Shown: positions 83 through 57,481 of the stretch, piece after piece
How the letters are laid out: the number at the start of each line of letters is the position of its first letter
Position numbering within the stretch: the stretch's first letter is position 1
From: Thermoplasmata archaeon
GTDB lineage: Archaea > Thermoplasmatota > DTKX01 > VGTL01
Direction of reading: 5' to 3'
Assembly: GCA_038851035.1 (NCBI GenBank)
Contig: JAWCLH010000009.1
Coordinates: 25,817 to 89,816 of the forward strand
Length of the DNA: 64,000 nt
The notes under the pieces: generated by a model
The model's database searches: none
What the model was told of the DNA's origin: nothing
What the model saw: the letters and a program-made list of their open reading frames with translations, nothing else
Made by a program: the position numbers and the translations under genes

Positions 83-152
83 GGCTCCACCGGCCATGTC
101 TCCACAAAGGGTCGCCCCAACACCCGCCGGGTTTTTGTCGCTCCATCCGGAC

Positions 153-203
153 CGCTCAAAAACGCGCTCAAAAAGGTAAATCGCTCAAAAAGGTAAATAT
201 ATC
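153..203 (+). promoter_or_regulatory. Tandem 17-bp repeats and TATA box upstream of the Kelch/PKD gene
   Basis: CGCTCAAAAAGGTAAAT occurs twice head to tail (165-181 and 182-198), with a third partial copy, CGCTCAAAAA, at 153-162. The second copy runs into an AT-rich TATA-like stretch (AAATATATC, about 195-203). A start site about 25 bases further on, followed by GGAGGGAGG at 228-236, would support translation from TTG 240. The repeats may bind a regulator, which is inference. Confidence 0.5.
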
Positions 204-239
204 GTGTTAGCGAATGAGCATCTGTCTGGAGGGAGGACG

Positions 240-3200
240 TTGACGAGGCCCCTGTGGTTTGTGGCTCTTATTCTGCTCACCACCCCCATTCCCATGCCCA
301 CATTGATAGGAGAGGGGGAAGGCGCATGCTCCGGAGGTAAGGTGGAGCCCTCTATGCCACCTGCGTCCAGCCTCGAGGGTGGCGCCATGGAGAGGGCGGA
401 CCCTGAGGTCTCGGGCGAGGGCCCCCACTCCCGAAGCGTAGCCTGGGAGATGCTCGCTCCCTCCTCCTACACGATAGACAGGGTGGTAATATCGGCGGGT
501 AGGGCGAATCTCTCTCAGGTTCTTGAGAGCGTGGGCGAGAGTTGGAGCCAGCGAGCCCGCCTCGGCGACGGGGCGGAGAGGGAGGACTTCTCCGCCGCCT
601 GGGACGATGCCAACAACCAGATGATCATCCACGGAGGCTACTACTTCGTCTCGGGCATGCAGGACGCAAGCTGGTTCCAGCCACTTTATACTTATTCTCC
701 GGTGAGCAACACCTGGACTAATCGTGGGAATGCCAAACTCCCGGCGGGCAACGTCGGTGTCTGGGACGGCGCGGACGGCTGCTTCATCACCCACGGCGGG
801 TACTACCTGAGCATGTGGGGCAATGCCTACTACAACCAAACCTGGGCCTGGTACCCGTCAATACAGGGGTGGAGCCGGCTCGCGGACGGGCCCACTCGCT
901 TTCACCACTCCGCGGTCTGGGACCCCGTGGACGGCGTGATGATTATTTTCGGGGGTTTGGAGACGATAAGCGGCGCCCCCTACGGGGACCTCTGGGCGTT
1001 CAATATGAGCACCAATTCCTGGGCCCAGCTGAACCCCGGTGGGGTAACTCCTTCGGCACGCGCTTACCACACCGCGGTCTGGGACACCAACGGCAGTCGG
1101 ATGCTGGTTTTCGGCGGCTACAACAACGGCCCCCTCTCTGACCTTTGGGCCTTCAACTATACGCAGATGCGCTGGACGCAGCTAGCGAGCGCGTCCTCGG
1201 CGCGCTACGGCCACTCCGCCTGCTGGAATTCCGACTTAGGTGTAATGACGGTCATTGGTGGCAAGGTTGGGGCGCAGGGCACAAACTCTAACGAGACACT
1301 GACCTACGACCCTTCTGCAAACGCGTGGGCCTCGAACGCAAACCTCCCAGCCGCGGGCCGATTCCGGCACGCCTGCGTGTACGACACTGCCAACCATCAG
1401 GTTATTCTGTATGGGGGCGGCACTGGCAGCGGGCAGGACGAGTTCTCAGACACATGGGCCTTTAGATACGGTCATCTGGAGCTCAGGTACGTCCCCCAGG
1501 GAACCATCCAGAGCCTTCCGTTCGACACCGGCCCCGATTTCCACAGCCTCAATAGAATTACATGGTACGGAGAGATTCCTCTGGGGACGAGCATAACTCT
1601 CCGGTTCCGGTCGAGTCAAACGAATGTGAACAGCTCATCCTTCACGGACATTGGAAACGGGAGCCGGCCGGTCCACCAAGGGCGCTTCGTCCAGTGGAAT
1701 GCCACCCTCCACGCCTCCTCCGACAGGACAAAGACGCCTGAGCTGGGGGCAGTGGTTCTGGAGTATACGGTAAACAGTAAGCCAAGGGCGTTCCCGGGCG
1801 AGGACAGGCAGGCCTATAAAAGGACAGAGGTTGTTCTCAATGGGAGCGCGGTGGATCTCGATGGAGACCCGGTGACATATAAATGGAGTAGGGTCTCGGG
1901 GCCCGCGACGGCCCTCAACAATCCAGAAAGCCAGAGGGCCTCCTTCATCCCCACCAAGTCTGGAGCCTATGTGTTCTCTCTGGTCGTGAGCGACGGCTTC
2001 GCCGAAAGCCAACCCGCGACCGTAACGATAACCGTCCCGAACAGGCCGCCGAGGTGCGACGCCGGACCCAACCAAACGGGCTTCAAGAGGCAGCTCGTAA
2101 CCTTCACAGCGACCGCCTCCGACGAGGACGGAGACCCCCTGAGCTACCTATGGACTCAGTCCTCGGGTCCACCCGCCATGCCCGCGGTCACCGACCAGCC
2201 CTTCCTCTCCTTCGTGCCGTTCACTATCGGCTGCTACACCTTCAGGCTGGAGGTGAGCGATGGAGAGGAGACGAGCGAACCCTCCTACGTGACGGCGGTC
2301 ATCTCAGGAAAGACCCCCACCGCCCATCTGGAGGCCAGACCATCTCAGACCGGCCTGAACTCCGAAGTACTGTTCTCGGCGTCTAGGTCGAGGGACGAGG
2401 ATGGCGACATCGTCGCGTGGCTCTTTGACTTCGGCGACGGAAACTCATCCGGGTGGATAAAGCATTCCTCCGTCAACCATACCTACACCGCGCCCGGCGA
2501 GTACAACGCCACGGTCAGGGTCCGGGACGACGATGGAATGGAATCAGGGTGCGCCACAGCCTGCGTGCGCGTGGAGAACAGGCCGCCCGTCGTTGACGCA
2601 CAGGTCTACCCGCTCACCGGGAACACCTCGACCGTTTTCAGGTTCTCCGTGCCCGCCGGAACCACAATTGACCCTGACGGGACGATAGTGGCTTATGAGT
2701 GGGACTTCGGTGACGGAACAACCGCGAGCGGGAGCGCCCAGACCCATACTTATAGAAAGAAGGGAAACTACACCGTCGTCTTTACCGTGACCGACAACTT
2801 CGGCGCAAAGGCATCAGTCGAGCTTGAGGTCAGGGTCCTGAATAGGCCCCCTGTGGTTGTATCGTACTCGCCGGCGGAGAGGACTGTGTGCTACACAGGC
2901 GTCGGCCAGCTGTTCTCCGTAGCGATGTCGGATCCTGATGGGGACAGGCTTTTCTACGAGTGGTTCGTAAACGACGTCCCCCAGAGAGACAACGACAGCT
3001 CGATGGCCTTCACGCCCGAGAAAAAGGGGGTATACAAAATCCTTGTCAGGGTCAGCGACGGCGAAGCTGAGGCTCTCTACGGCTGGACGCTCGAGGTCAG
3101 GTCCAGACCCGCAATTGGGCAGGAGGGCAAGGTGGAACTGTTCTGGCCCGCGATTATTATCGTCCTCATCATCGCCGCGACCATTACGATATTTTTCCTG

Positions 3201-3434: not shown

Positions 3435-3448
3435 AGGGAACTGCACAA

Positions 3449-3459
3449 TCTTTTTATCA
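3449..3459 (+). promoter_or_regulatory. TATA box of the subtilisin-like protease gene
   Basis: TCTTTTTATCA lies about 25 bases before ATG 3480 in the 45-base gap after the Kelch gene. The spacing implies a leaderless or nearly leaderless transcript. Confidence 0.5.
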
Positions 3460-3479
3460 ACCGGAGCCATCATTGGACC

Positions 3480-6400: not shown

Positions 6401-7433
6401 GGGCTGGAGGGCCTCCCTCTTCCCCCGCTCCGCAGAGCTCGAGGCTGGCGGGTGGACCGACATCGCCCTGACAGTCTCCTCGCCGCCTTGGAGCCTAGCG
6501 GGGCAATGCTGCACGGTCGAGGTATCGGCGGTTGACGCGGCGGGCATTCGCTCGTCCCTCACCATAACAACGATGGTCCGGCCCCGGGCGGGACTAGAAG
6601 TCGAAGTGGTCAAGGGAATCGTGAGCGTCCGCGCGGGCGAGGTCGCCACGCTCGCCGCGAGGCTGAGCAACACCGGTAACTTTGAGGAGGAGTTCGATAC
6701 CGATGCCCTCGCACCTCCCGGTCTGTCCGCACGCACGGAGCCTCCCATCGCCCGCCTTCGGCCCGGCGGGAGCGCGATCGTGCTCGTCAGGGTCAGTCTG
6801 ACGGCATCCCATCCGCCGGGGGAGGTGGGAATCGCTGTGCGGGTCGCGCCACGCTCGGATGCCTCCATGGCGCGCTCGGTGAATATTACCCTCGCCATCC
6901 TCCAGCGCTACTGTGTCTGGTGCGATGCTGTGGAAAGGGAGAGGACGGTTGAGAGCGGGAGTGGAGTGGATTTCGTCCTGATAGTGACCAACACGGGCAC
7001 CGGCCCCGACCTGATACGCCTCTCGCTGCCCGGGGCCCTTCCGGAGGGCTGGAAAGCCTCGCTGAGCCCTGCAGAGCTCGAGCTCCAGCCTGGCGAGAGC
7101 GCGGATGTTATTCTGTCGATGACCACTCCCGCCAGCCGGGGGAGCTCGCTCATCGCGATTCCAGTCCGGGCAATCTCCTCGGGAGACGGGCGTATCGCGT
7201 GCGAAACCGTCGTTCTGCTCCATGCCACTCCCATCACCGCGCCCGGGGCCCCGAAGCCGCCCTCGCCGCTGCCGCCCTCACCGGAGCCGCCCGCTCCTAC
7301 GCCGGAACCCACGATTTCAACGGAGCGCTCGTCAATTGGCCTCGTGGCCGCTCTGGCTCTTGCTGCATTATTCTCCCTGCTTGTGTGCTCGGCGGCGCTA
7401 TTCATGCGGCTGCGGAGAAGAAGGTGGGATTGA
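3480..7433 (+). CDS. Secreted subtilisin-like (S8) serine protease with CARDB/NEW3-type modules and C-terminal anchor
   Basis: A large extracellular protease of 1317 residues. It has an N-terminal hydrophobic segment, a propeptide-like region to about residue 280, and then the S8 domain. The catalytic residues are all present: Asp296 (AVCDTGVDG), His328 (WHGTHVSGT), oxyanion Asn436 (SAGNDG) and Ser510 (SGTSMACPV), so it should be active. Residues about 560-690 form the usual jelly-roll after S8 domains. From about 695 to 1260 several CARDB/NEW3-like beta domains repeat the pattern 'VVNTGNTADTYSISLEG'. A proline-rich linker leads to one membrane helix (about 1283-1305) and RLRRRRWD. It sits directly behind the Kelch/PKD gene with its own TATA box. 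Roles in processing surface proteins or degrading external protein are both plausible. Confidence 0.88.
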   Translation: MSPAMVRTRRRQAAPRVRTVMSMVVLLAGTIAWSPMLQAITFKPALNPARSPLSGARDDNPPDEVKVMERGSARTCRAIPLRLRAGEFDPLKDETFIPGNLKSSGEDGCFIVQFDGPVRQDWVAWLEGRCGVLAYLPDFAFVVRAPPSVADGLRTHPHIRFVGPFHPAYRLHPELAPDGRLRTLSVLAFSDSLPGRLARELESLGAEVVGVEGPAVFIRAPDILSIQIARLPDVQWVEELRPDAPHNYKTSLITSIRSPTDGPYNFSSDSCLWSYNSSYGGFEGYTGGNMTVAVCDTGVDGTHPAFEGRKKLFFSYTGSENWTDTGWHGTHVSGTVLGSGAYRPGHSGTAGYYGGMAPGAQLVGQARSFSGAGAYATYCRDASRGSALVQSNSWGSSGADHGDYDSRDVIYDRSVRDSDPDREGNQSLCIVFSAGNDGPGNGTVQPPATAKNVIAVGATDKVNGTTVASFSARGHCDDGRIKPDLVAPGVSVVSTSSNASSSYITASGTSMACPVVAGAAVVVCEHFCVTRGLLPSPAMVKAVLINGAEPLADYSWPGPEQGWGRLNLSRALLNTTARKIWVEDQQHKLATGESRDYQFRVVGGSELRVTLVWSDVPGTVNANFALVNDLNLIVSAPDGTTYMGNSFAGGFSVPGNGSDNVNNIEQVRIASPAEGWWGVRVSGANVPSGAQDYALVISGKFVHVFPETTDLSVLNLSASPAEPEEGETILLSAELFNAGPVALPGLRYRFTVGGAGGPEAATIDGGLGGLRPGETAPVSASWTATRGLWIVAIEADPFDDIPERSEDNNSLSVELFVRGYGVRLETGAERIAVDPGEEALLEVGVVNTGNTADTYSISLEGQVLNGWTAKLSDTSVVVPRCETRQVWLTVAPPTWAGALESCSLWVRCTSTGNSSHTASVQITVVVNHLFGLNLTAERWEGLVDPGASTLYILRLENTGNGPDQFNLFASGPTRGWRASLFPRSAELEAGGWTDIALTVSSPPWSLAGQCCTVEVSAVDAAGIRSSLTITTMVRPRAGLEVEVVKGIVSVRAGEVATLAARLSNTGNFEEEFDTDALAPPGLSARTEPPIARLRPGGSAIVLVRVSLTASHPPGEVGIAVRVAPRSDASMARSVNITLAILQRYCVWCDAVERERTVESGSGVDFVLIVTNTGTGPDLIRLSLPGALPEGWKASLSPAELELQPGESADVILSMTTPASRGSSLIAIPVRAISSGDGRIACETVVLLHATPITAPGAPKPPSPLPPSPEPPAPTPEPTISTERSSIGLVAALALAALFSLLVCSAALFMRLRRRRWD

Positions 7434-43413: not shown

Positions 43414-43542
43414 GGGGGAGTGAGGAGCTCCTTACTGAGGTCCGTCGGGCCCAGAGAGGGGCCTGATTTTTCCGTTCCACAAACCTTAAAAAAGGGGTAG
43501 TTCATTGTTTGCGATGGTTATGTGCGAGGGGGAGAGAGGAAT

Positions 43543-46500
43543 ATGATAATCAGGGACAGAGATTCGCGCCTTGCCAGGGTCAAGGAACTGCTTCTCGCCT
43601 ACTGCCTTGTCTCGCTCTGCGGCCTCCCGCTCGTATCGCTGGATGTCGAGGCTGGGACTCCATCTGCAACCTACACAATGACTTTTCAGTCGGGCGGGAA
43701 CCTAGGAATAACCCCGGAGGGGAATTGGGTGTCGGACCCCATAATCGTGGCCCCCTCCGTCACCATAAGCAGGCTAGAGGTGACCATTGGTCTAACCCAT
43801 GCAAACCCGGCCGAGCTGCAGATCTGGCTTGCGTCACCGGGTGGCGTGTGGCAGCAGATACCCTGGGCGCCGTGGGGAGGGCCCCGGCAGACATTCACCC
43901 TGAACAATTTCGCCGGCCTGAACTCCGCGGGCAACTGGGCCCTCTGGCTCCTCGACGGCGTCGCTAACGGAGTGACCGGAAAAGAGGACTATTGCTGGGT
44001 CACGATTTTCTATACCCTCGACTCTGACATAGTTACGCCCGCGATTGGAGCAACGATATCCGGCAATTATGTGGTGAGCGTACGGGCGCAGGGCGCGGCG
44101 AGCGTCAGAATCTACGTCGACGACCAATGGGTCTCGAACGCAGCCTACAACGCGGGAACCAGCAGGTGGGACTACACCCTCGCTACAACCGCCTTCCCGG
44201 ACGGCGCCCACACCATAACAGCCGTGGCGCGGGACTGGCAGGGAAACGAAATCGCCGATGGTCACCCAGTCACCTTCGACAACTGGAACATTTACGTTCT
44301 CTTCGGCAACCCGCCCAACGGGGCCATGATTTCAGGTACGTATACCGTCACATGCTCCGTGCCTAATTACGCGGTCAGGGGGGAGCTGTTTGTGGAGGGC
44401 GACCTGGTAGGGGTGGATACAACGATTTCAGGAGGGCAGTACGCGATATCCCTCGACACTCTCGCCTTCCCGGACGGTGGCTACAGCCTCCGGTGGATTG
44501 TCTACGACCCGGACGGTAAGAGCGCCACGGCCCTAAGGCATGTCGCAATTGACAACTACCAGATATCCTGCTCGATATCCTACCCCGCCTCCGGTTCGAC
44601 CGTATCAGGCACAATTACCGTGAACGCCACCGTTCCATCATATGCCCGGAAGGGAGAGCTATATCTGGATGGTACATTCATCGCGCTTTCCACGAGTGTG
44701 TCCGGTGGCATGTTCTCATTCAAGCTCGACACCCGGGGCTACCCAGACGGACCCCATTCCCTTAGCGTAATCGCGTACGACCCTGACGGGGACAGCGCCG
44801 TTGGAGTCTCGACTGTTTCATTTGATAACTACGCAATATTCGCGACCATTGTCTCCCCTGGCACGGGCTCCCCCCTCTCCGGGAGCAGGACGGTCTGGGT
44901 CAACACGGCGGACTATGCTGTGCGCGGGGAGCTACTCGTTGACGGAGGTCTCTATGCAACCACCACCTCCCTAGCCAACGTTGGCGCTTTGTGGTACCAG
45001 ACCTATATCCTCAACACCTCGGACTTTCACGATGGCTCCCACACGGTGACTGCCGTCTCATATGACCCGTACGGCGAGAGAGCCTCCCACACCCTGAAGT
45101 ATGGGTTCGACAACTACGACATTTACGTGACTATCACTCATCCAGGCGCGGGTGCGGTTCTGTCGGGCAATGTCACAGTCAACGCCTCCGTACCTTCATA
45201 CACACAAAAGGGCGAGCTTTATGTGGATGACGAGCTCTCGGCCGTGGACACCTCGGTCAGCTCCGGCCAGCTCCAGTTCACACTCTCCACGAGCGACTAT
45301 AGCGACGGGATGCACAGGCTCAGGGTCGTGGTTTACGACCCCGACGGTGGCATCGCGGTCGGAATTCGCTCCGTCACATTCGACAACTACCAAATATCCG
45401 TGACCATCACTAGCCCCGTGGATGGCGGAATCGTCTCGGGGACCGCAACGGTCACAGCCAGCGTTCCCAGCTACGCAAAGAGCGGAGAGCTATACGTTGA
45501 CGGGCAGCTCGTCGCGACGGCTGGTGGACTCTCGGGGGGCGCGCTGAGCTTCAGCCTAAACACGAAGGCTCTCTCCGATGGCAAGCACTTCCTCAGCGTG
45601 GTCGCCCTCGACCCGGACGGGGAGAGGGGAGCCCATACGATATCCGTGATTGTGGACAACTACAATATCTTTTGCACCCTCTCCTCCCCCACCACAGGTT
45701 CGGTGATTTCGGGGAATGTAACGTGTTGGGTCAATGCTCCGGACTACGCCACGAGATGCGAGCTGTACGTTGACGGCCAGCACATCGCGACCTGCACCAC
45801 GCTCACATTCGTCAGTGGCGGAAGGGGCTGGTACCAGATTCTTCTAGCCACAAAGGGCTTTCCTGACGGGACACACCTGGTGAGCGCGCGGGCTTATGAC
45901 CCCGACGGCAACTATGCGGTGGATGTCAGGAGCCCCGTTTTCGACAACTACAACATCTATGCCTCAATAGCCTCGCCATCCGAAGGGGCAAGAGTGTCAG
46001 GGAACGTCACCGTGGCCGTATCGGTGCCTTCATACGCGACGAAATGCGAGCTCTTTGTCGATGGTGTTCTCACAGCTACCTGCGCGACCCAAGCATTGGG
46101 CCAGTTCAGGGTCTCCTTCAGCTCTCTCTTCTTCCCCGACGGAAAGCACGTCCTGACAGCTGTTGTCTATGACCCAGACGGAGCCAGTGCGACGGCCTCG
46201 AGGGGTGTCTTGGTGGACAATTATGACATCAGCGTGACCATCAATAATCCCTTGAACGGCTTCACAATATCCAGAACCTATCTGGTCAATGCCACCGTCC
46301 CGGCCTATGCTGTTAAAGGTGAGTTATACGTCGATGGCTCCATCTATGCCATAGACATCGATCTCGACGCGCTAAGCAGATACCAGTTCTCTCTGGACAC
46401 AACAAGTTATCCGGACGGCAAACATAGACTAACGGTGGTGGCCTATGACCCTGACGGAAACTTCGGCGCGGCCACTGTCAGCGGCGAGTTCGACAACTGG

Positions 46501-49500
46501 AACGTATATGCGAATTTCGCTCCTCTATCAACCCCACTCTCTGGCAACGCCACAGTATCCGTATATGTCCCGCCCTACGCCCGAAGTGGGGAGCTCCGGG
46601 TCGATGGAATTCTGGTTTCCACTGACACCACGATAAGCAGTAACCGATTCGACTTCTCTTTCGACACCAGAGCCTTCCACGACGGGACCCACATTCTGAG
46701 CGCCACTGTCTACGACCCCGACGGCAACTACGCCACCGCCTCGCAGAGCGCCGCCGTCGACAATTATCAGATTTATGTGAATATACTATATCCAGCGGGG
46801 GGCGGCGTTCTGGGGGGCACGGAGATCGTGAGGGCCTCTGTGCCGGCCTACGCGGTCAGGGGAGAGCTATATATCGACGGCGGCCTCCACTCGACCACCA
46901 CTTCTCGCGTCTCGGGCGAGTTCAGGTTTGTGGTCGACACGAAAACCCTCAGGGACGGCCCACACGCGTTCACTGTGGTTGCAACCGATCCCGACGGCGG
47001 CACGGCCTCCCAGACCCTCACGGTCAATGTTGACAACTACCAAATCAGCGTTTCACTCCTGATCTCACCCGGAGGAGCTCTTCTGATGGGCAACCAAACG
47101 CTGATGGCCTATGCCCCATCCTATGCGACACACGGGGACTTCTACATCGACGGCGCACTTGTGTCGGTCGACTACACACTCACCCAGTCGGGCTCTCTTT
47201 ACTACTTCTCTCACATCGTTGATACCGCAACGTTAAAGGACGGCCCCCACTCTCTGGTAGTAATAGCCTACGACCCGGAGGGGAACGGGGCCTCAGTGCA
47301 GACCACGATAACGATTGACAACTGGCGAATCTCCGTAAACATTACCTCCCCTTCCACAGGCTCGATGAAGTCCGGCATGGTGACTGTCTCGGCCACGGTT
47401 CCCCCATATGCAAAGAGGGGGGAGCTGTACGTCGACGGCCTCTTCTATGGTCAGACCGGCACAATCTCCGGAGGAGCCTATCTCTTCCAGCTCGACACCC
47501 GAAGCCTCATTGACGGCTGGCACTCGGTCGCCGTAAGGGCTTACGACCCGGACGGCGAGAGCGCCTACCATTCCGTATCGGTTCTTTTTGACAACACACC
47601 CCCCTCCCTAGCCAACGCGAGTGTCATATACCCGGCTGGGCTGGGCGCTGTGAAGAAGGGCGGCGTAGTCTCTTTGACAGTCGAGGCGGCTGACAAGGCC
47701 TCCGGCCTGGCGTGGGTCTGGTGTAACTTGACGAATCTGGGCTCAGTAAGCGTTCAGATGCACGACGATGGCCTCCACAACGATACCCGGTCAATGGACG
47801 GCATTTTCGGGAGCGGCGGAATCACGGTCAACGCTACTATGGGCTACCATCATGCCTTCATTACGGCAACCGACATGGCCGGGAACTCGGCGACCGTCAC
47901 GGCGAAGGTGGCTGTCGACACGCACGACCCCCTCATAACAAACTCCTATTGCGTCTACCCCGCAGGGCAGTCTGCGGCGAAATTCGGGGACAGCGTGAGA
48001 ATCGTCTCGAGGGTTGTTGACACGAAGATGACGGTGGACGTAGTTCTGGTCATAGACACATCCGGCTCAATGAGCGGCACACCGATAAGCGATGCAAAAA
48101 CCGCCGCCAAGACATTCATCGGCAATCTCGGAGAGTACGACAGGGCCGCGATATACTCCTTCAATAATCCAGCGGGCCCGGGAGGAAACAAGCCGAAGCT
48201 GGAAGTGGCATTTACATCAGACAAGGCGACACTGAACTCCACCATCGACGCCCTGAGCGCGGACGACTGGACCCCGCTTTACGACACGATATACGAAGCG
48301 ATTCAATACGCCAAGACCTCCCCCAACATGCCAGTGGTCATTATTCTTACAGACGGAAACGACGAACTCGCCGGAGGTGGACACAGCACCCACACCCTCC
48401 AGGACTGCAAGAACGCCTCCATACCCGTTTACACCATCGGCCTCGACCCCCAGTCCCCGCCATATCAGAAGCTCAATGAGACCGTTCTGAAGGAAATAGC
48501 CTACAGCTCCGATGGAGGCGCCTACTACCACGCCCCCAGCTCCTCCCAGCTCAAGCAGATCTACGAGGATTTGGCGATGGTGGTGGAGAAGATGGAGGTC
48601 GGCGGAATTTCTGAGGTGTGGTGCGACGCCTCACCGATTGGCGGCCCATCCTATATGGGCATGTTCGACGACGGTGCCCATGGAGATAGAGCCCCCAGCG
48701 ACGGCTATTACGGAAGCGCGTGGATAACCGTTGGCTCGGCGGCCACGGCGGTATTCAATCTCACAGTGACGGCCCAGGACATCGCTGGAAATAGAGACAA
48801 TGATGTTGCTTACGTTCTTCTTGACAACACCCCGCCCGTTCTCTCCAATATCGACGTGAGGTACGGCCCAGGGAAATGGTGGGCCGGGGACGGGGAGTCG
48901 ATTTCAATCCTAGCAACGGTCAATGATCCTGGGAGCGTTGGGGGGGTGGGGAGCGTCGAGGTGGACACCTCGGCCATCGGCGGCCCCTCCTCCGTCGAGA
49001 TGCTGGATGACGGAAGCGGAAACGACCAGACCCCAGGCGACGGGAGGTACACATCGAAGGGTGTGCTCGTTGCCACCGGCCGCGCAACCGGCATCTACAC
49101 TTTCCGCGTAACAGCTCGAGATAACGCCTCCAATCGTGCCTCCCAGTCCGGGAACGTTTACATCGACAATGGCCGGCCCCTAGTCATCACAATCATCCAA
49201 CCCCAGCCTGGCCAGTTCGTCGAGGGCCTTTTGACTGTCAGGGCGAGGGCCACGAACGCGGCCGCCGTCCAGACCATCGAGCTCGAGATTGGACCAGGCT
49301 CCATGCGCCTCAACACTCACTACAACGGGCTGAGCGGTTGCTTCGAAGCCTCACTCGACACCTCATCAATACCTGACGGGAGCTACTCTCTTTCCGTGTC
49401 GGGGCAGGACATCGCGGGCCATCCCATTGACCCGCCGGTTCCCCTGACCTTCAACGTGGACAACCACCCCCCATCCCTGAGGATCGCCTCGCCTCGCTCG

Positions 49501-52431
49501 GGGGACTTCGTTTCTGGTGTAGTCATAATCAACACATCCGGAACTTCTGACACATTCCTGAGCGCGGTCGAGTACAGCGTGGACGGGAGAGATTGGGTCT
49601 CGACGGGGGTTCCTTGGCAGACGCTGGAGGAGGAGGAGGGGCCCCACCTCATCGTAGTGCGCGCTATGGACAGGGCCGGCCACACCGTCCAGCAGACCCT
49701 GAAGGTGACCGTCGACAACAACAATCCGGTCTGCAGGATTGTATATCCGGGGGAGCGGGCAGTTGTGAGCGGTAAAATTGTGGTTGCGGTCAAGGCCTCG
49801 GACGGAGTAGGGATTCAAAGGGTGCTCGTGTCGGGCGCCGCCAGCGGCGAGGCGGACTGGAACTCTCAGAGCGGCTACTTCGAGTTCGAGCTGGACACTC
49901 GGGAGTTGACTGACGGAGGCTATACACTCGGAGCCTATGCAGAAGATTTCTCTGGCCGGACCGCGCAGGCTGCGCCCGTGATGTTCTATGTGGACAATCA
50001 CGAACCCTCGCTCGTCGTGGAGAATCCACTGGACCATGGCCACGTTTCGGGTGTGGTGACCGTGAGTGCCGCTTCATACGACGGGCCATTCACATCAGAC
50101 CTGAAGGTATCTTACAGAGTCGACGAGGGCGGCTGGGTGCGGATGGTTCACGGGGAGCTCTGGAGTGCCGACTGGGACACGGGTCTCATTTGCGACGGCC
50201 CCCACACGCTTACCATCCGCTCCGAAGACATCTCGGGCAGAGTTGTGCAGGTGACCCTCCTCGTCACCGTGGACAACCATGACCCGGAGTGCCAGCTCAT
50301 CAGCCCCCTTGATGGAGAATATATCGAGAGGAGGTACGTTTTCCAGGCCCTCGCAGGAGACGATGTCGGGCTAGTCAGCGTGACGCTGAACCTCACCGGA
50401 ATTGGCGATTTCCAGATGTCCTACAATGGTCTGACTGGGTTCTTCGAGCGCTCCCTGATTACGACGAAATTGCCGGACGGGCTCTACAGCGCCTCCGTGA
50501 TTGCCGTCGACCGCTCCGGCAGGGAGACGCGTGCTGGACCCGTTGAATTCGGCGTGGACAACAACGCCCCATCGCTCGTTCTACTCAGGCCACGGGAGGG
50601 TGAGCCGATAACAGACATGGTCACTATAGAGTATGCGCTCACGGAAGGGCGGGGCGAGGGTGAGGAGGTCAGGGTAGTATACCGCATAGACACTGGTCCC
50701 TGGACCCCCGCAGACCAGAGCACGAGCGTCAGTGGCCTGCCGGACGGCCCCCACACCGTGACCGTCAAGGCCGAGGACGCCGCGGGGCATCTGACTGAGG
50801 TCAGTGTAACAATCTTCATTGACCGGGAGGGGCCAAGGCTACACATTATTGCACCGAGGAGCTCGCTCCAGACGAAAGGGGATGTGCCGGTGCGCCTGAG
50901 GGTTGAGGATGCGGTTGGAGTCAGGAGCGTCAGGTTGCTTCTTGACAACTCTACCTCTGAGGAGCTCTTCCTTAACGCCGCTACGGGCTTCTATGAAACC
51001 GAGCTCTCACTGGCCGGACTTCCCGACGGCCCGCACAACCTCACTGTGGTGGTCGAGGATCTCGCGAGCCATACGGCTGAAGCGAACACCACTGTCAGAT
51101 TGGACACCACTGGACCTGAGATCGCGCTCTCCTCGCCCTCGGTGAGAGACAGACTCACCGGAAAAATAGAGTTCCGCGCCATGGTCTCGGATTCGGCTGG
51201 CGTCTCGCGTGTGTGCATAAGGCTCAAGAGCGGGGACTGGAGGGAGATGAGGCTCGACACCGACGGCCGTTATACCTTCACCTGGGACACAGGCCTCAAT
51301 GACGACGGCTCCCATACAGTAGAGATTATGGCCGTCGACGCGCTCGGGAACGAGCGCATCGTCCCCTACGGCCTCTCGATTCAGAACCGGAGCCCCAATT
51401 TCATAGCAGACAATTTCGACTGGCTCCTGCTCCTGGTCTTGATCCTGGGCTTCGCGGCCGTGACCATCGCGGCACTCAGGAGGCCCGGGCGGGCGTTGCT
51501 GTATCCCGCGTATCCCGCAGGCCCAGCCCCCTCCGGTGCCCCTCCGCCAGCCCCTGGGGCTGAGAGGCCCCAACCCGCTCCAGCCACCGCACCTCCGCCC
51601 CAGCCATCGATTCCCTCCGTTCCCCCGCCTGAGCAAATGCCTGTACCTGTGCCCAGCCGGCCCGTGAGCAAACACGGGGAGGCTGAGGTCGAGGAACTCG
51701 AGATTCTAGAGATGGCCGAGCCACCCGCCCCCCCGCTCGGCCCGCGCGTCCCCCCAGCTCCCTCCAAGGCCCCGCGCAAGCTTCTCTCCTTCCTCAGACA
51801 AGCAAAGCCTGAACTGGTGAGTCCGCCACCCCAAGGGCCGGGAGAGGCGGGCTTCGTCGAGGTCGAAGAGGAGGGCGGGGTCGAAACGTTGGAGATGAAG
51901 GAGGCGTGGATGACGGGGGAATCCTTCCCCCCCGCAAAGGAGGTTCCGACGCAACTTCCCAGGGCGACGGGAGGAGGGGCGGGGTGGGAAGAGGACTTCG
52001 TGGAGGTTCCTGAGGAGCCCGAGCTCCGGCGGCCCGAGAACGCACCGAGCGAGCCTAGGCCCGCGATCCCTGGAGGTGCCGCCTTGCAAGTGGCTCCACA
52101 GACCCAGCCCAGGCCCCCCGTGGTTGCCCCACCCTCGAAGGGCATCACTCCTCTTGACAGCCTGCTGTTCTCCCAGCTCAAGGTGACTCGGACGGAGGAG
52201 GAGAGGGTCCGGAGGGGTCCGCCACCCGGATGGTATCATCCGAGGCCTGCCGAGATACCACCCCCATCTCCGCCGTCCCCGCCTCCCGCACCCAAGAGCG
52301 ATGGAGTGGCCGTCGCACCGCCCGAAGCTCTCAAACCGGTTCCACCTGAGGCTAGGATGAGCCATAGGGAAAGGCAGAAGATGGAGGCGATGATGGAGGA
52401 CCTTCTGGCGAAGGCTAGGAAGAGGAGGTGA
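43543..52431 (+). CDS. Giant cell-surface protein: P-domain, 13 tandem modules, VWA, Ig repeats, anchor and acidic tail
   Basis: About 2962 residues. ATG 43543 follows GGGGGAGAGAGGA; GTG 43522 is less likely. A signal segment (VKELLLAYCLVSLCGLPLVS) leads to a proprotein-convertase-type P-domain (about 45-165). 13 modules of about 91 residues follow (about 44018-47595), each with 'YAxxGELYVDG', 'YDPDG' and an ending DN-Y/W. A VWA domain lies at about residues 1495-1685 with a full MIDAS: DTSGS (1505-1509), Thr in DDWTPLYD and Asp in ILTDGND. Further Ig-like modules run to about residue 2620. A helix (WLLLLVLILGFAAVTIAAL) is followed by a Pro/Glu-rich cytoplasmic tail of about 317 residues ending in MMEDLLAKARKRR. 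An adhesion role is likely; the ligand is unknown. Confidence 0.85.
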   Translation: MIIRDRDSRLARVKELLLAYCLVSLCGLPLVSLDVEAGTPSATYTMTFQSGGNLGITPEGNWVSDPIIVAPSVTISRLEVTIGLTHANPAELQIWLASPGGVWQQIPWAPWGGPRQTFTLNNFAGLNSAGNWALWLLDGVANGVTGKEDYCWVTIFYTLDSDIVTPAIGATISGNYVVSVRAQGAASVRIYVDDQWVSNAAYNAGTSRWDYTLATTAFPDGAHTITAVARDWQGNEIADGHPVTFDNWNIYVLFGNPPNGAMISGTYTVTCSVPNYAVRGELFVEGDLVGVDTTISGGQYAISLDTLAFPDGGYSLRWIVYDPDGKSATALRHVAIDNYQISCSISYPASGSTVSGTITVNATVPSYARKGELYLDGTFIALSTSVSGGMFSFKLDTRGYPDGPHSLSVIAYDPDGDSAVGVSTVSFDNYAIFATIVSPGTGSPLSGSRTVWVNTADYAVRGELLVDGGLYATTTSLANVGALWYQTYILNTSDFHDGSHTVTAVSYDPYGERASHTLKYGFDNYDIYVTITHPGAGAVLSGNVTVNASVPSYTQKGELYVDDELSAVDTSVSSGQLQFTLSTSDYSDGMHRLRVVVYDPDGGIAVGIRSVTFDNYQISVTITSPVDGGIVSGTATVTASVPSYAKSGELYVDGQLVATAGGLSGGALSFSLNTKALSDGKHFLSVVALDPDGERGAHTISVIVDNYNIFCTLSSPTTGSVISGNVTCWVNAPDYATRCELYVDGQHIATCTTLTFVSGGRGWYQILLATKGFPDGTHLVSARAYDPDGNYAVDVRSPVFDNYNIYASIASPSEGARVSGNVTVAVSVPSYATKCELFVDGVLTATCATQALGQFRVSFSSLFFPDGKHVLTAVVYDPDGASATASRGVLVDNYDISVTINNPLNGFTISRTYLVNATVPAYAVKGELYVDGSIYAIDIDLDALSRYQFSLDTTSYPDGKHRLTVVAYDPDGNFGAATVSGEFDNWNVYANFAPLSTPLSGNATVSVYVPPYARSGELRVDGILVSTDTTISSNRFDFSFDTRAFHDGTHILSATVYDPDGNYATASQSAAVDNYQIYVNILYPAGGGVLGGTEIVRASVPAYAVRGELYIDGGLHSTTTSRVSGEFRFVVDTKTLRDGPHAFTVVATDPDGGTASQTLTVNVDNYQISVSLLISPGGALLMGNQTLMAYAPSYATHGDFYIDGALVSVDYTLTQSGSLYYFSHIVDTATLKDGPHSLVVIAYDPEGNGASVQTTITIDNWRISVNITSPSTGSMKSGMVTVSATVPPYAKRGELYVDGLFYGQTGTISGGAYLFQLDTRSLIDGWHSVAVRAYDPDGESAYHSVSVLFDNTPPSLANASVIYPAGLGAVKKGGVVSLTVEAADKASGLAWVWCNLTNLGSVSVQMHDDGLHNDTRSMDGIFGSGGITVNATMGYHHAFITATDMAGNSATVTAKVAVDTHDPLITNSYCVYPAGQSAAKFGDSVRIVSRVVDTKMTVDVVLVIDTSGSMSGTPISDAKTAAKTFIGNLGEYDRAAIYSFNNPAGPGGNKPKLEVAFTSDKATLNSTIDALSADDWTPLYDTIYEAIQYAKTSPNMPVVIILTDGNDELAGGGHSTHTLQDCKNASIPVYTIGLDPQSPPYQKLNETVLKEIAYSSDGGAYYHAPSSSQLKQIYEDLAMVVEKMEVGGISEVWCDASPIGGPSYMGMFDDGAHGDRAPSDGYYGSAWITVGSAATAVFNLTVTAQDIAGNRDNDVAYVLLDNTPPVLSNIDVRYGPGKWWAGDGESISILATVNDPGSVGGVGSVEVDTSAIGGPSSVEMLDDGSGNDQTPGDGRYTSKGVLVATGRATGIYTFRVTARDNASNRASQSGNVYIDNGRPLVITIIQPQPGQFVEGLLTVRARATNAAAVQTIELEIGPGSMRLNTHYNGLSGCFEASLDTSSIPDGSYSLSVSGQDIAGHPIDPPVPLTFNVDNHPPSLRIASPRSGDFVSGVVIINTSGTSDTFLSAVEYSVDGRDWVSTGVPWQTLEEEEGPHLIVVRAMDRAGHTVQQTLKVTVDNNNPVCRIVYPGERAVVSGKIVVAVKASDGVGIQRVLVSGAASGEADWNSQSGYFEFELDTRELTDGGYTLGAYAEDFSGRTAQAAPVMFYVDNHEPSLVVENPLDHGHVSGVVTVSAASYDGPFTSDLKVSYRVDEGGWVRMVHGELWSADWDTGLICDGPHTLTIRSEDISGRVVQVTLLVTVDNHDPECQLISPLDGEYIERRYVFQALAGDDVGLVSVTLNLTGIGDFQMSYNGLTGFFERSLITTKLPDGLYSASVIAVDRSGRETRAGPVEFGVDNNAPSLVLLRPREGEPITDMVTIEYALTEGRGEGEEVRVVYRIDTGPWTPADQSTSVSGLPDGPHTVTVKAEDAAGHLTEVSVTIFIDREGPRLHIIAPRSSLQTKGDVPVRLRVEDAVGVRSVRLLLDNSTSEELFLNAATGFYETELSLAGLPDGPHNLTVVVEDLASHTAEANTTVRLDTTGPEIALSSPSVRDRLTGKIEFRAMVSDSAGVSRVCIRLKSGDWREMRLDTDGRYTFTWDTGLNDDGSHTVEIMAVDALGNERIVPYGLSIQNRSPNFIADNFDWLLLLVLILGFAAVTIAALRRPGRALLYPAYPAGPAPSGAPPPAPGAERPQPAPATAPPPQPSIPSVPPPEQMPVPVPSRPVSKHGEAEVEELEILEMAEPPAPPLGPRVPPAPSKAPRKLLSFLRQAKPELVSPPPQGPGEAGFVEVEEEGGVETLEMKEAWMTGESFPPAKEVPTQLPRATGGGAGWEEDFVEVPEEPELRRPENAPSEPRPAIPGGAALQVAPQTQPRPPVVAPPSKGITPLDSLLFSQLKVTRTEEERVRRGPPPGWYHPRPAEIPPPSPPSPPPAPKSDGVAVAPPEALKPVPPEARMSHRERQKMEAMMEDLLAKARKRR
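44018..47595 (+). repeat. Thirteen tandem coding modules of about 91 residues
   Basis: Module ends are marked by F/V/I-DN-Y/W (the last by FDNT), giving 13 units from 44018 to 47595, near 275 bases each. Every unit has a 'SG...TV...VPxYA' strand, most have GEL(Y/F)VDG, then an 'LDT...DGxHxL' stretch and '(Y)DPDG'. The DNA of the units differs, so the array is old and kept by selection on the protein. Confidence 0.8.
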
Positions 52432-53205: not shown

Positions 53206-56200
53206 CTACTCGACATACCTTAGCGCCTCTGCGGGAGGCACCTTGGCCGCCATTAGGCTCGGGTAGAATGTAAACAGAATTGTGGCGAGATAGGCTCCCA
53301 GGGCGATTATCAGGATGTTTTCCACGGGGATGACAAAGCTTGCACCAAGCTCCCTGTAACCACCCCCATCGAATATCTGCCAGCCTATACCCACCCCCAG
53401 AAGGATGCCGATGAATATCGCGAGAATGGTGACAAAGCTCGTCTCGATGAGGAAAGAGCTGGCAACCATCCTGCGAGTGAAGCCCACGGCTCTCATCATA
53501 CCGATTTGCTGGCGGCGCTCGATGACGTTTCTATAGGATACGATGCCGATACCGGCTATTCCAATGAAAAGGCCCACAGCGAGGAACGCCTCCATCAGGT
53601 ACATCACGTTTGATATCGATGTCGTCACGATGGATATTATCGCGTTGATGTCGATCACAACCAGCCCATTCTCGAGATAGGCCCTCTTGAAATCCTTCAT
53701 CGCCCCGCCGGAATCCTCGTGCGGCCCGAGGTCGACGAGAAGGAGTCTGTCTGCCCCGCTGTATTCTTGTGAGACCAGCTCCCTGTTGACGACAATGCCC
53801 TGAAAGAAATACATCTGGTGCATCACGCCGATTACTCTCAACGTCCTAGTCCTGTTCTGGCCCTGGAGATCCGTCACTGTCACCGTCCCTCCCGCGTAGG
53901 CCCCCCTCTGGCCCCCGAAGCTCGGGCCGCCCTGTATATAGGCCGTCTGAAACCTGCTCCCATCAATTATACATAGGGAACGGTTATTCTTTAGAGCGAG
54001 CCAGCATTCCCTGTCAGAAGTATAGTTACTGTCCCTTTCCTGGAGAGGAAAGCCGTTTCTCTCTAGGAAGTCTTCGCCTGCACCGTAGAGCTGGGTGATG
54101 CGGGATCCGGAGGCTATGGGCTGGCCCATCTCTATGCCGCTACCGCCACCGCCACCCATCTCATCGTATCCGACCAGTGCGACCATGGAGGTGCTGAGTG
54201 TATGGAGCTGGCGTATGTCTCTTTCCCGGAGCTGCGAGGGAAGGTTCTCAAGACTCAAGTTCTGGAAGGGCGTGCCCGGGCCGGTGAAACCGATGATGTC
54301 ATAACCCCCGCTTTGCTGACCCTTGATATTCTCCATCATCGACGCCTGCATCGCCGCTATCATCGCTATTACCGTTACGGTGAAAATCACGAGAGAGAAC
54401 ATCGCCAGCGTCATCCCCGTTCTGCCTTTGCGGTCCATCGGGTAGGCGACCGCGAGCTTCAGGGCGGCTCTCAGCGACCCCGACCTTCCCATTATCCTTT
54501 GGAGAAGCGAGAGGAGGGCGTCGGAGTTGAACATCATTAGGAGGACGCCGGCGATGACAAGAAAGACCCCACTGACGACGAACATATCGAGTCCCGCCCC
54601 CTCGGAAACGGCCTCGGAAACGATGGGGAGGGGGAATGGGTTGAAGACCCAGACTAGTATGGCGGTCGAGGAGAAGCTCATTGCAGCCCGCAGGCTGACC
54701 CATTTATGTAAGAGCAGCCCGAGTCCCAAAAATAAGAGGCAGGGTCCTGCGAGCCAGGCCCAGGCTATTTTCGCACTGGCCGCAAATAATGTGATTAGCA
54801 GGCCGGAAACGAGCATCAGGGCCCCGTACTGAATGTCGGACTTCATCGCCCTGCTCCCCCGGGGCTCTGGAATTCTCCTGATTGCTCGAATAATATTGAG
54901 CCGAGCACCCCTCCGAGTGGTGATGTATATTGTTATCAGAGTGAGCAGCACGCCCCCACAGAAGGCCGTCAGAACGCTTTCCCATCTGAAGAAGAAGGGG
55001 AACTGGGCAACACCAGTGAAAATCACACCAAAGGCCTGAATGAGGAGATAGCCGAGGCCCAGACCCGCGAGTCCACCCACTGCGCTTGCGAGAAGAACAT
55101 AAATGGCACCCTCGAACAAGAACATCCTCACGAGCTGACGCCGCATCATCCCTATGGCCCGCACTATCCCCATCTCGCCTTTTCTCTCCTCTGCCAGCAT
55201 CACGAATATATTGACTATGAGCACAATCCCCGCAATTATCGCAAAGACCGAGAAAATCATGAATATCTGGCCGATTGCCTCGCCACCCGCCCTAGCCCTC
55301 TTCAGCCCATCGTACTTGACGTCGTGCACCTCCAGCCCCGCGTCCCCGGCCGTGATTCTATCATCAAGTTCGGCCCGCACCGAAGAGGCTATGGCCTCAA
55401 GGAGCCGCGGGTCCGGACCCCATATTCTAGCGAAGGATAGAATCTCCACTGGATAGACGCCGCCCGTGACCAGATGCTGGGCGTCCCCAGGGGACAGGAA
55501 ACCAAAGGTAACGTTTCGGATTTCGGGTGACAGGAGTAGTTCTGGGCCGGGGGGTAGGACCAGAGCCTTCAGGTTTATACTGCGCACCACTCCGTCCAGA
55601 CCACGGCTGGCGAGGGAGATGGAAGTGCCGTTGCTCAGGTTCAGCGACGAGGCTGGGCCGCTGAGAACCGCTAGCTCCCCGCTCTCCACAACCGGAATCG
55701 ATGGGTCGGTGGTGTTGAAGCCTAGCGCAAGAGGAGTCGGAGGTGGGGCGCCGTTTACTGAGAGAAGCGGGGCCACAGTAGCGGTGAGCGCCTTCGCTCC
55801 AACCGCCGCTCCTTTCTCCAGTAAAAGGGAGGCATGGCTCGCGGGGAAATGGCCCAGAGTGCTTGTCAGCTCTAGCCCATCCCCAGTGATGGCGAGACGG
55901 AGCCCCAGCTCTCTCATACCAACAGCCCCGTCGAGAGCCCTCAAAATGCTGCGGTTAACCTTTGGCGACCAGCTCTCGCCCTCGCGCATGTCCCCCTTGT
56001 CCGATATCAGGATGGTGTTTATCTTCCCGCTCAAATTGAAAAGTTCCTGCGCGGTCGAGAGCTCCATGAAAAGTGCCTTGACCTGCTCGTAGTTGGCCCT
56101 TCCGAACAGCTGTTTTTCCTGAATGAGTCGTGCAATCGTGAGGTTGAGGCGAATCTGCACGGGCCCGGACCCGCCACCAGCCATGTATGAGCCGTAGGCG

Positions 56201-56784
56201 ACGGTCAGAACGTCTCCAGGACGGGCCTCTAGAGCCTCTCCGAGGCGCGAGTTCAGGGCGACTTCGCCCCGCGCGAGAGCATCCGTATAGAAGCCTGCTC
56301 CGTCAAGACTTCCGAACGCCGAGGTTCTCATTACGGAGGAGTTGAAAGCTCGGAGGACCACAGAGGGCTCAGCGAGCTGGGTGCGCGGGTTGAGTACCGA
56401 GACGGTTACGAAAAGCGCGGGCGCGACCGCCTCGATACCCTCGACGGAGGAGAGGCCATCAGAGAGGGAACTATAAAGACCCCCGTCGAAATTTCTCAGA
56501 CCTCCCGCCGGGTCCGTGCCCGACACAACGTGGTCAACCTCGCCCAGCGAGCGATAAGTCTCGACCTCGAAGAGGTAGCGCATCGTGTCGCCGACGACGA
56601 GAGAGGAGGAGATTATTGCGGTCCCCACCATCAGCCCGGCCACGACGAGTGCGCTCTGAGCCTTCCTTCTTGAGAAGTTCCTTACCGCTAGTCGGAAAAC
56701 GACCCTTCCCTGAAGGGCGAGGGCAGTGAGCGCGGCTAGTATGACGAGCACGAGCAGCAGGCAGATGGAAAGGCCGGGTTCCAT
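53206..56784 (-). CDS. ABC transporter permease, MacB/FtsX type, two FtsX units in one chain
   Basis: A 1192-residue permease. A helix (ICLLLVLVILAALTALAL) and a second (ALVVAGLMVGTAIISSSLVV) precede a large extracytoplasmic domain to about residue 500. Then comes an FtsX-like four-helix unit ('IFMIFSVFAIIAGIVLIVNIFVMLAEER'), helices near 670-770, another ectodomain and a final FtsX unit ('EAFLAVGLFIGIAGIGIVSYRNVIERRQQIGMMRAVGFTRRM'). Two fused FtsX units allow one chain to serve as the whole permease. ATG 56784 lies four bases after the ATPase stop. MacB-type complexes work as mechanotransmitters or export lipids/peptides; the cargo is unknown. Confidence 0.9.
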   Translation of the reverse strand: MEPGLSICLLLVLVILAALTALALQGRVVFRLAVRNFSRRKAQSALVVAGLMVGTAIISSSLVVGDTMRYLFEVETYRSLGEVDHVVSGTDPAGGLRNFDGGLYSSLSDGLSSVEGIEAVAPALFVTVSVLNPRTQLAEPSVVLRAFNSSVMRTSAFGSLDGAGFYTDALARGEVALNSRLGEALEARPGDVLTVAYGSYMAGGGSGPVQIRLNLTIARLIQEKQLFGRANYEQVKALFMELSTAQELFNLSGKINTILISDKGDMREGESWSPKVNRSILRALDGAVGMRELGLRLAITGDGLELTSTLGHFPASHASLLLEKGAAVGAKALTATVAPLLSVNGAPPPTPLALGFNTTDPSIPVVESGELAVLSGPASSLNLSNGTSISLASRGLDGVVRSINLKALVLPPGPELLLSPEIRNVTFGFLSPGDAQHLVTGGVYPVEILSFARIWGPDPRLLEAIASSVRAELDDRITAGDAGLEVHDVKYDGLKRARAGGEAIGQIFMIFSVFAIIAGIVLIVNIFVMLAEERKGEMGIVRAIGMMRRQLVRMFLFEGAIYVLLASAVGGLAGLGLGYLLIQAFGVIFTGVAQFPFFFRWESVLTAFCGGVLLTLITIYITTRRGARLNIIRAIRRIPEPRGSRAMKSDIQYGALMLVSGLLITLFAASAKIAWAWLAGPCLLFLGLGLLLHKWVSLRAAMSFSSTAILVWVFNPFPLPIVSEAVSEGAGLDMFVVSGVFLVIAGVLLMMFNSDALLSLLQRIMGRSGSLRAALKLAVAYPMDRKGRTGMTLAMFSLVIFTVTVIAMIAAMQASMMENIKGQQSGGYDIIGFTGPGTPFQNLSLENLPSQLRERDIRQLHTLSTSMVALVGYDEMGGGGGSGIEMGQPIASGSRITQLYGAGEDFLERNGFPLQERDSNYTSDRECWLALKNNRSLCIIDGSRFQTAYIQGGPSFGGQRGAYAGGTVTVTDLQGQNRTRTLRVIGVMHQMYFFQGIVVNRELVSQEYSGADRLLLVDLGPHEDSGGAMKDFKRAYLENGLVVIDINAIISIVTTSISNVMYLMEAFLAVGLFIGIAGIGIVSYRNVIERRQQIGMMRAVGFTRRMVASSFLIETSFVTILAIFIGILLGVGIGWQIFDGGGYRELGASFVIPVENILIIALGAYLATILFTFYPSLMAAKVPPAEALRYVE

Positions 56785-56788
56785 ATAC

Positions 56789-57481
56789 TCACCGCGCACC
56801 GGTCTCCTGGCCGATGATTCTGCCATTCTCCATACGTATAAGACGCCCGCACATTCCGCCGACTGCGGGGTCGTGGGTGACGATGACGAAGGTCAGGCCC
56901 TTCTCCCGGTTGAGCTTTCTCATGAGCTCCATGACCTCGCGGCTGTTCTCGGTATCCAGATTGCCGGTGGGCTCGTCCGCCCAGACAAGAGCGGGGTCGT
57001 TGACGAGGCTGCGTGCGATCGCGACGCGTTGCTGCTCCCCCCCGCTCAGCTCGGCCGGCTTATGGTTCTCACGGCCGATGAGGCCGACGAGGGCCAATGC
57101 TTCGAGCGCTCTTGCCCTTGCCTCCTTCATTGGAGTCCCGACGAGCAAAAGGGGGAGCTCGACGTTTTCGAGAGCAGTCAGCACGGGGAGGAGGTTGAAG
57201 CTCTGAAAAATGAAGCCCATTTTTCTTGCGCGATACGCAGTTCTCTCATCATCCTTCATCGCGTGGATATCCTTTCCCTCAATAAGCACCTTTCCGGAGG
57301 TCAGGTCGTCTAGACCGGAGAGGCAATTCAGCATCGTGGTCTTGCCACAGCCCGAGGGCCCCATCACCGCTACCATCTCGCCCTTCTCGACCGTGAAGTC
57401 CACCCCGCGTAGAGCCTCAACCTTCACGCGGCCGGTGTCGTAGGTCTTGTGGACGCCCCGCGCCTCGATTATCGCTACCAT
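56789..57481 (-). CDS. ABC transporter ATP-binding protein, MacB/LolD type
   Basis: A 230-residue ATPase of the MacB/LolD group. Walker [12 protein letters not shown]-loop '[23 protein letters not shown]', signature [15 protein letters not shown], Walker [15 protein letters not shown]-loop VTHDP. It works with the permease whose start lies four bases downstream. A TATA is not obvious; an AT-rich stretch (ATTTTTGATATTAAAC) lies at about 57510-57525. Confidence 0.94.

Follow-up and report, generated by a model that had tools for sequence, protein, structure and literature searches.

Integrin beta chains are single-pass membrane proteins with a cytoplasmic tail, and they carry a von Willebrand factor A (VWA)-type domain with a metal-ion-dependent adhesion site (MIDAS) inside a β-sandwich hybrid domain. 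The heavy chains of inter-alpha-inhibitor (ITIH) have a VIT domain beside their VWA domain. In the heavy chain HC1, as described in excerpts of PMC7170535, a loop of an integrin-like hybrid domain accommodates the vWFA domain, so that two strands of the host precede the insert and six follow it; this layout is termed reminiscent of integrin beta chains. In RTX adhesins, according to a partial text of PMC12077191, ligand-binding domains emerge from split domains and are projected off the fibre axis. Here we describe an archaeal protein of 2,962 residues (P0001, the reference for our comparisons), encoded by a single open frame at positions 43543–52431 (plus strand) of a 64,000-nucleotide stretch of a Thermoplasmata archaeon genome (the window). 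Its sequence and a structure model place a MIDAS-bearing VWA domain inside an immunoglobulin (Ig)-like domain, and the protein is probably a membrane-anchored adhesin.

The VWA domain and its Ig-like host

The VWA domain (residues 1494–1688, positions 48022–48606) matched PF00092 over residues 1499–1675 with 59.2 bits (cut-off 23.8) and contains the DxSxS motif, threonine and aspartate of the MIDAS. These residues (D1505, S1507, S1509, T1577 and D1604) are identical in all 14 aligned proteins. Of 17 P-numbered proteins scanned for the DxSxS pattern, a set that left out P0011, 15 contained it (all but P0017 and P0018), as did loci G003, G030 and G041.

Three neighboring domains, A (residues 1352–1459, positions 47596–47919), B (residues 1460–1762) and C (residues 1763–1875, positions 48829–49167), are of one common type. 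A profile trained on A and C of 14 proteins, with B excluded, scored 128.7 bits for A and 152.5 bits for C (both in the training set) and found domain B of P0001 as two pieces: profile positions 3–43 (19.3 bits) immediately before the VWA domain (residues 1460–1493, positions 47920–48021), and positions 29–113 (69.6 bits) immediately after it (residues 1689–1762, positions 48607–48828). Judged by its sequence, the second piece is beyond doubt an Ig-like half. The first scored 8.9–20.8 bits, compared with 9.2 bits for the best of 280 shuffled B domains, and P0010 (8.9 bits) fell below that value. An AlphaFold model of the region (9 alignment rows; predicted local distance difference test, pLDDT, 85.7; predicted template modeling score, pTM, 0.56) displays seven strands of B, two preceding the VWA domain (model residues 213–220 and 233–241) and five following it (438 to 509), while the unsplit sister C has the same seven-strand run without an insert. 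The earlier note had treated the VWA domain as a module in series; the two sequence halves and the model instead indicate that an Ig-like domain encloses it, with the point of insertion between predicted strands 2 and 3.

With position windows set by hand for all of these counts, both B pieces were found in all 17 of P0001–P0017 with a VWA match above 15 bits (14 of which supplied the profile), in G003 (whose gene is that of P0015), and in G030 and G041. Fifteen further loci included 14 with a VWA domain; both pieces were found in eight (among them L044 and L048, which duplicate G030 and G041), the first only in three, the second only in one, and neither in two (L063 and L064). Neither piece was detected in 38 other database VWA proteins or in two paralogues on contig C13 of the host genome, and frames without the nest numbered 42 in all. 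A short-query search for the nest yielded 38 proteins, 37 with a VWA match above 15 bits (all except P0048) and none with both Ig halves.

The two contig C13 paralogues are adjacent giant frames of 1,924 and 2,187 residues (L067:1219-13553, G000:C13, minus strand) that combine archaeal Pilin_N with CARDB, VWA and MAM-like domains. They are candidate pilin-type VWA adhesins; their VWA domains are un-nested by the A/C profile, and the contig holds a third VWA frame. In a relative from another family of the phylum (L068:4695-11315), an insert splits the VWA match in two, and thrombospondin type 3 repeats lie near the C-terminus.

The archaeal protein resembles integrin beta chains in having a MIDAS-bearing VWA-type domain nested in an Ig-like β-sandwich domain, together with a single membrane segment and a tail; on the archaeal side this likeness draws on the sequence halves and the model, and the structure was compared with HC1, not with integrin beta. 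Unlike integrin beta chains, it is archaeal and has no known alpha subunit, its nest is flanked by two Ig arms, and its list of Pfam matches up to E 1 contains no integrin-beta family. The same list contains no VIT family, which places the protein outside the ITIH group, and the large Hybrid2 sandwich described for HC1 in the excerpted report is another difference (PMC7170535). Among the 50 VIA rows listed, the row for HC1 (6FPY) spans just the VWA and Ig-like pair, with a root-mean-square deviation (rmsd) of 10.1. The rows for 4fx5 (113..513, rmsd 13.5) and 8s05_A (211..513, rmsd 13.8) also extend past the VWA domain on both sides, suggesting that a flanking sandwich is not unusual for VWA domains of known structure. 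The integrin entries in these rows are alpha I domains, except possibly for 9p97_A, a chain of alphaE-beta7; no integrin beta nest is among the 50 rows, an absence that is uninformative. Foldseek searches with two models returned mainly long multi-domain β-sandwich proteins, including GhpA of Aureispira as another long chain, with TM-scores of at most 0.31 by query and up to 0.42 by target; we discarded these rows as a guide to architecture.

The RTX adhesin AhLap, in the partial account of PMC12077191, shares a long array of Ig-like extenders and ligand-binding domains that emerge from split domains; a VWA domain also emerges from another domain there, but from an RTX roll and not an Ig-like domain. 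RTX adhesins have type I secretion and an RTX C-terminus, whereas the archaeal protein ends in a membrane segment and tail and has no RTX family in its Pfam list. The Gram-positive pilus tip adhesins SpaC, RrgA and GBS104 display a MIDAS-bearing VWA domain with two inserted arms at the adhesive tip, a likeness taken from published description in excerpt, but they belong to sortase pili with a CnaB-type domain (PMC5536039). Archaeal arCOG02742 and arCOG02747 comprise secreted proteins with Ig-like and vWA domains; in the sections of PMC5898192 drawn on here, however, the vWA domain is C-terminal, joined to an Ig-like domain at the N-terminus, and the genes lie beside one for a MoxR/GvpN ATPase, whereas in the 2,962-residue protein the VWA domain is nested. 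None of the 16 window open reading frames (ORFs) scanned, including both flanking genes, encodes a MoxR/GvpN-type ATPase, so the locus falls outside the Ig-vWA systems linked to arCOG01314. The nest of HC1 and the split domains that carry ligand-binding parts in RTX adhesins suggest that the VWA domain is likely the ligand-binding part here as well. By analogy, a split-domain VWA head with an adhesin-like mode of work is likely, the central nest being common to HC1 and, via the HC1 paper, integrin beta.

Arm, P-domain, anchor and tail

The frame starts with an ATG at 43543 and ends with a stop at 52429–52431. A GTG at 43522 is a possible alternative start that would give a longer protein; P0002, which is 98% identical, begins at the same methionine as the ATG product. 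The N-terminus is signal-peptide-like (residues 1–36, positions 43543–43650), as judged by hydropathy, with a hydrophobic stretch at 13–31 (mean 1.82). The only late hydrophobic stretch above threshold (residues 2627–2645, positions 51421–51477; mean hydropathy 2.74) is followed directly by RRPGR. Together, these features predict that the N-terminus lies outside, far from the membrane, and that the order from the outside in is P-domain, 13 modules, A, B with the VWA domain, C, eight Ig modules, membrane segment and tail. The earlier note had listed a P-domain, 13 near-equal modules, a VWA domain with full MIDAS, Ig modules, an anchor and a 317-residue tail in a surface protein, and we confirmed each of these elements, with modules of 89–96 residues and a single late membrane segment. 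Its proposal of a rigid stalk carrying the VWA domain fared less well: the 13 modules are predicted on the membrane-distal side of the VWA domain and thus do not carry it, and a model of residues 36–616 (P-domain and part of the arm; pLDDT 87.6), with a pTM of 0.45, does not bear out rigidity. Between the VWA domain and the membrane come the remainder of domain B, then domain C and eight divergent Ig modules (residues 1876–2615, positions 49168–51387), with boundaries set by DN motifs and module matches.

The arm (residues 157–1351, positions 44011–47595) consists of modules of 90, 91, 91, 95, 91, 91, 96, 91, 92, 89, 91, 95 and 91 residues, in order, with a mean pairwise identity of 40.5%. An Ig-like module is about 4 nm long, so the arm would measure roughly 50 nm. 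A hidden Markov model (HMM) trained on these modules gave 13 consecutive matches of 96–125 bits. The repeating unit is a known one: Big_7 (PF17957) matched 14 stretches of the whole protein with 349.3 bits (cut-off 24.1). Of three arm modules submitted singly, two scored above the cut-off and one below, and all three of the membrane-side divergent modules tried scored above it. By sequence, the 13 modules are Big_7-type Ig domains. The whole protein also exceeds the cut-offs of NF041940 (Choice-of-anchor X; 31.6 bits vs 25, three stretches), for which single domains score 21.1–23.5 bits, below the cut-off (A 21.5 and C 23.5 as fragments), and of NF033510 (Ca2+-stabilised adhesin repeat; 82.6 bits vs 50, four stretches), which 0 of 10 single stretches pass. 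The motifs DN and DPDG would allow calcium at the module joints, as in RTX extenders (PMC7493085). Matches to the pattern DP[DYE]G number 12 in the protein.

Comparison of module number among orthologs, as the earlier note had suggested, revealed 9, 10, 13 or 16 arm modules in long relatives and one in the short relatives P0016, P0017 and G041. Seven of the ten closest proteins have 13, P0004 has 16, and P0009 and P0010 have 10; P0012–P0015 have 10, 10, 9 and 9, respectively. (An automatic count of 14 for P0005–P0007 includes a later Ig module past the VWA domain.) Modules 1–5 and 9–16 of P0004 align with modules 1–5 and 6–13 of P0006 at 68–75% identity, so that one three-module block in mid-array (modules 6–8) explains the difference between 16 and 13. 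In P0009 and P0010 the array ends match those of P0001 and the middle is shorter. A single module-like domain (28–39 bits) precedes domain A in P0016, P0017 and G041, bringing the VWA domain close to the N-terminal end, and G030 has about 800 residues ahead of its VWA domain, with one recognised module among them. We infer a common core, made up of A-B(VWA)-C, the Ig stack, the membrane segment and the tail, onto which the P-domain and the long arm were grafted.

The P-domain (residues 37–156, positions 43651–44010), predicted to be outermost, matched PF01483 with 23.9 bits in the whole protein (cut-off 21) and 32.7 bits when residues 36–157 were submitted alone. This region is the sole PF01483 match in the 2.69-Mb genome, and the protein has no match to the S8 catalytic domain PF00082. 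An S8 protease does lie elsewhere in the window, as had been noticed (positions 3480–7433, ~36 kb from the adhesin gene), and contains no P-domain at E ≤ 0.001. We rejected a protease-linked P-domain of the proprotein convertase kind, given the missing S8 domain and the single match genome-wide. The P-domain therefore stands alone, as first proposed, with one qualification: a 1162-residue paralogue on contig C6 (G000:C6, L072) has an N-terminal P-like domain that scores 39.2 bits to the family profile and falls below the PF01483 cut-off. One arm-type module (55 bits) and then Ig modules follow it, with no VWA match. The family P-domain profile, trained on P0001–P0010, matches 13 of 14 long proteins, with P0012, P0013 and P0015 at 21–31 bits and P0014 at only 3.3 bits; PF01483 itself exceeds the Pfam cut-off in 2 of 17 genomes.

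The tail (residues 2646–2962, positions 51478–52428) is predicted to be cytoplasmic, and proline makes up 23.7% of its 317 residues. Majority-residue frequency over 9 rows is 0.50 for residues 2646–2870 and 0.75 for the conserved end (residues 2871–2962), which equals the conservation of the folded domains. The four most distant aligned relatives have different C-terminal ends, and a search of the genome at E ≤ 1 found no second tail-like sequence. The short-armed relative P0016 has a zinc-ribbon match (E 1.4e-5; 24.8 bits, under the 27-bit cut-off) at residues 2076–2099, within its predicted cytoplasmic tail.

Family and genomic context

A protein search retained 45 proteins among 7,997 candidates scored. 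The 13 full-length relatives (P0002–P0010 and P0012–P0015; P0011 is shorter and was excluded from the alignment) share 35–98% identity with P0001, and relatives are titled Thermoplasmatota, Thermoplasmata or Euryarchaeota. The architecture, at first taken as unrecognised, is present in databases in relatives of the same domain order, under generic names such as "Ig-like domain-containing protein" and "VWA domain-containing protein." The core was found at E ≤ 1e-30 in 3 of 5 genomes of the class (G003 among this class) and in at least 15 of 389 genomes searched in the phylum, which the titles of the relatives identify as Thermoplasmatota; the latter is a lower bound, as these genomes were drawn from a larger group and at most two candidates were scored per genome. 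A first scan of named genomes found no relative, and a second found three Thermoplasmatota-type relatives plus four weak loci, one from a Woesearchaeota record. Among the papers listed by the literature search, no title or abstract dealt with a VWA domain nested in an Ig domain in Thermoplasmatota. The protein belongs to a conserved archaeal family that, as far as these titles and abstracts show, is undescribed.

Neighboring genes were compared by blastp, taking ORFs of at least 100 residues and requiring E ≤ 1e-8 with 40% coverage of the shorter protein; the G004 contig consists of the adhesin gene alone. An operon or partner genes were rejected, since only Ig-type proteins are common to the compared loci. 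Elsewhere in the window, positions 204–7433 encode a Kelch/PKD protein followed directly by the S8 protease, which has a CARDB domain, both proteins being large. A 1,206-residue FtsX/MacB-type permease (positions 53206–56826, minus strand) lies near the adhesin gene.

Proposed function and alternatives

We consider it probable, though well short of certain, that this protein is a membrane-anchored archaeal adhesin, predicted to bind its target via the MIDAS of a VWA domain nested between predicted strands 2 and 3 of an Ig-like domain. Domain order, the splitting of B around the VWA domain, the intact MIDAS motif and the family come from sequence; folds and strands come from the models. In this mechanism, the nested VWA domain would project sideways from the chain and use its MIDAS metal to grip an acidic side chain, with the eight Ig modules holding it off the membrane. 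The 13-module arm would reach further out and present the P-domain as a second contact, and the conserved tail end may bind a partner inside the cell.

Several observations weigh against an adhesin. The first half of domain B is weak in some relatives (in P0010, 8.9 bits, and 5.1 bits in a whole-protein search), P0018, a member of the wider group, lacks a VWA match, and the VWA domain of P0017 lacks the DxSxS pattern. The rmsd of 10.1 to HC1, together with the pTM of 0.56, indicates that the placing of the VWA domain relative to the Ig-like domain either differs or is poorly modeled. TFIIH and Arn proteins are among the best fold matches, and MIDAS-bearing VWA folds also do non-adhesive work. 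Finally, the window shares no neighbor genes except Ig-type proteins with loci G003, G030 and G041, so gene context is of no help.

Among the alternatives, the one that survives best is that the main partner of the VWA domain is a second molecule of the protein, or the cell's own S-layer, so that the protein would build a surface coat and not grip outside targets. HC1 shares the nest and dimerizes in a MIDAS- and metal-dependent manner (PMC7170535, in excerpt), and S-layer proteins (8cka_A and 7ptp_A) are among the fold rows of the Ig arm. We nevertheless regard a coat as unlikely, because a coat would not require the conserved tail end that follows the single membrane anchor, and the Pfam matches up to E 1 include no S-layer family. 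A signaling receptor, in which a MIDAS ligand shifts domain B and the cytoplasmic tail reads this out as in integrins, is distinctly unlikely: domain C and eight Ig modules stand between the nest and the membrane, and the four most distant aligned relatives have different ends, even though the nest is that of HC1 and, by the excerpted PMC7170535, of integrin beta, and the membrane segment leads to a conserved tail end without another match in the genome. The P-domain at the outer tip might instead be the main binding head, leaving the VWA domain a regulatory or cis-docking role. Its predicted outermost position favors this arrangement, as does the fact that 13 long proteins out of 14 have a recognisable P-domain (10 of them profile-training), but the short P0016, P0017 and G041 retain the nest with no P-domain match and the VWA domain is the better conserved of the two (0.82 vs 0.72), making such a role improbable. 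An assembly or gene-model artefact can be dismissed, as the draft state of the genome (50 contigs, 99% complete) is outweighed by 2,962 codons without a stop and by same-order relatives in other assemblies.

A more ambitious version of the adhesin reading, which we put forward tentatively and consider unlikely, is that Thermoplasmatota possess a single-chain integrin-like adhesion receptor. In such a receptor an Ig domain of hybrid-like type would house the MIDAS domain, with the P-domain arm pointing outward on one side and an Ig stalk on the other, and the chain would couple outside contact to the conserved cytoplasmic tail. The nest of a VWA domain in an Ig-like domain lies at the functional center of integrin beta chains, and an archaeal one-gene membrane protein with a like nest would argue that this adhesive design is either very old or was invented independently. 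The family also illustrates how adhesin length varies, with arms of 10, 13 and 16 modules among the ten closest proteins and one module in short relatives, and it offers a small test system for communication between a MIDAS domain and its host Ig domain.
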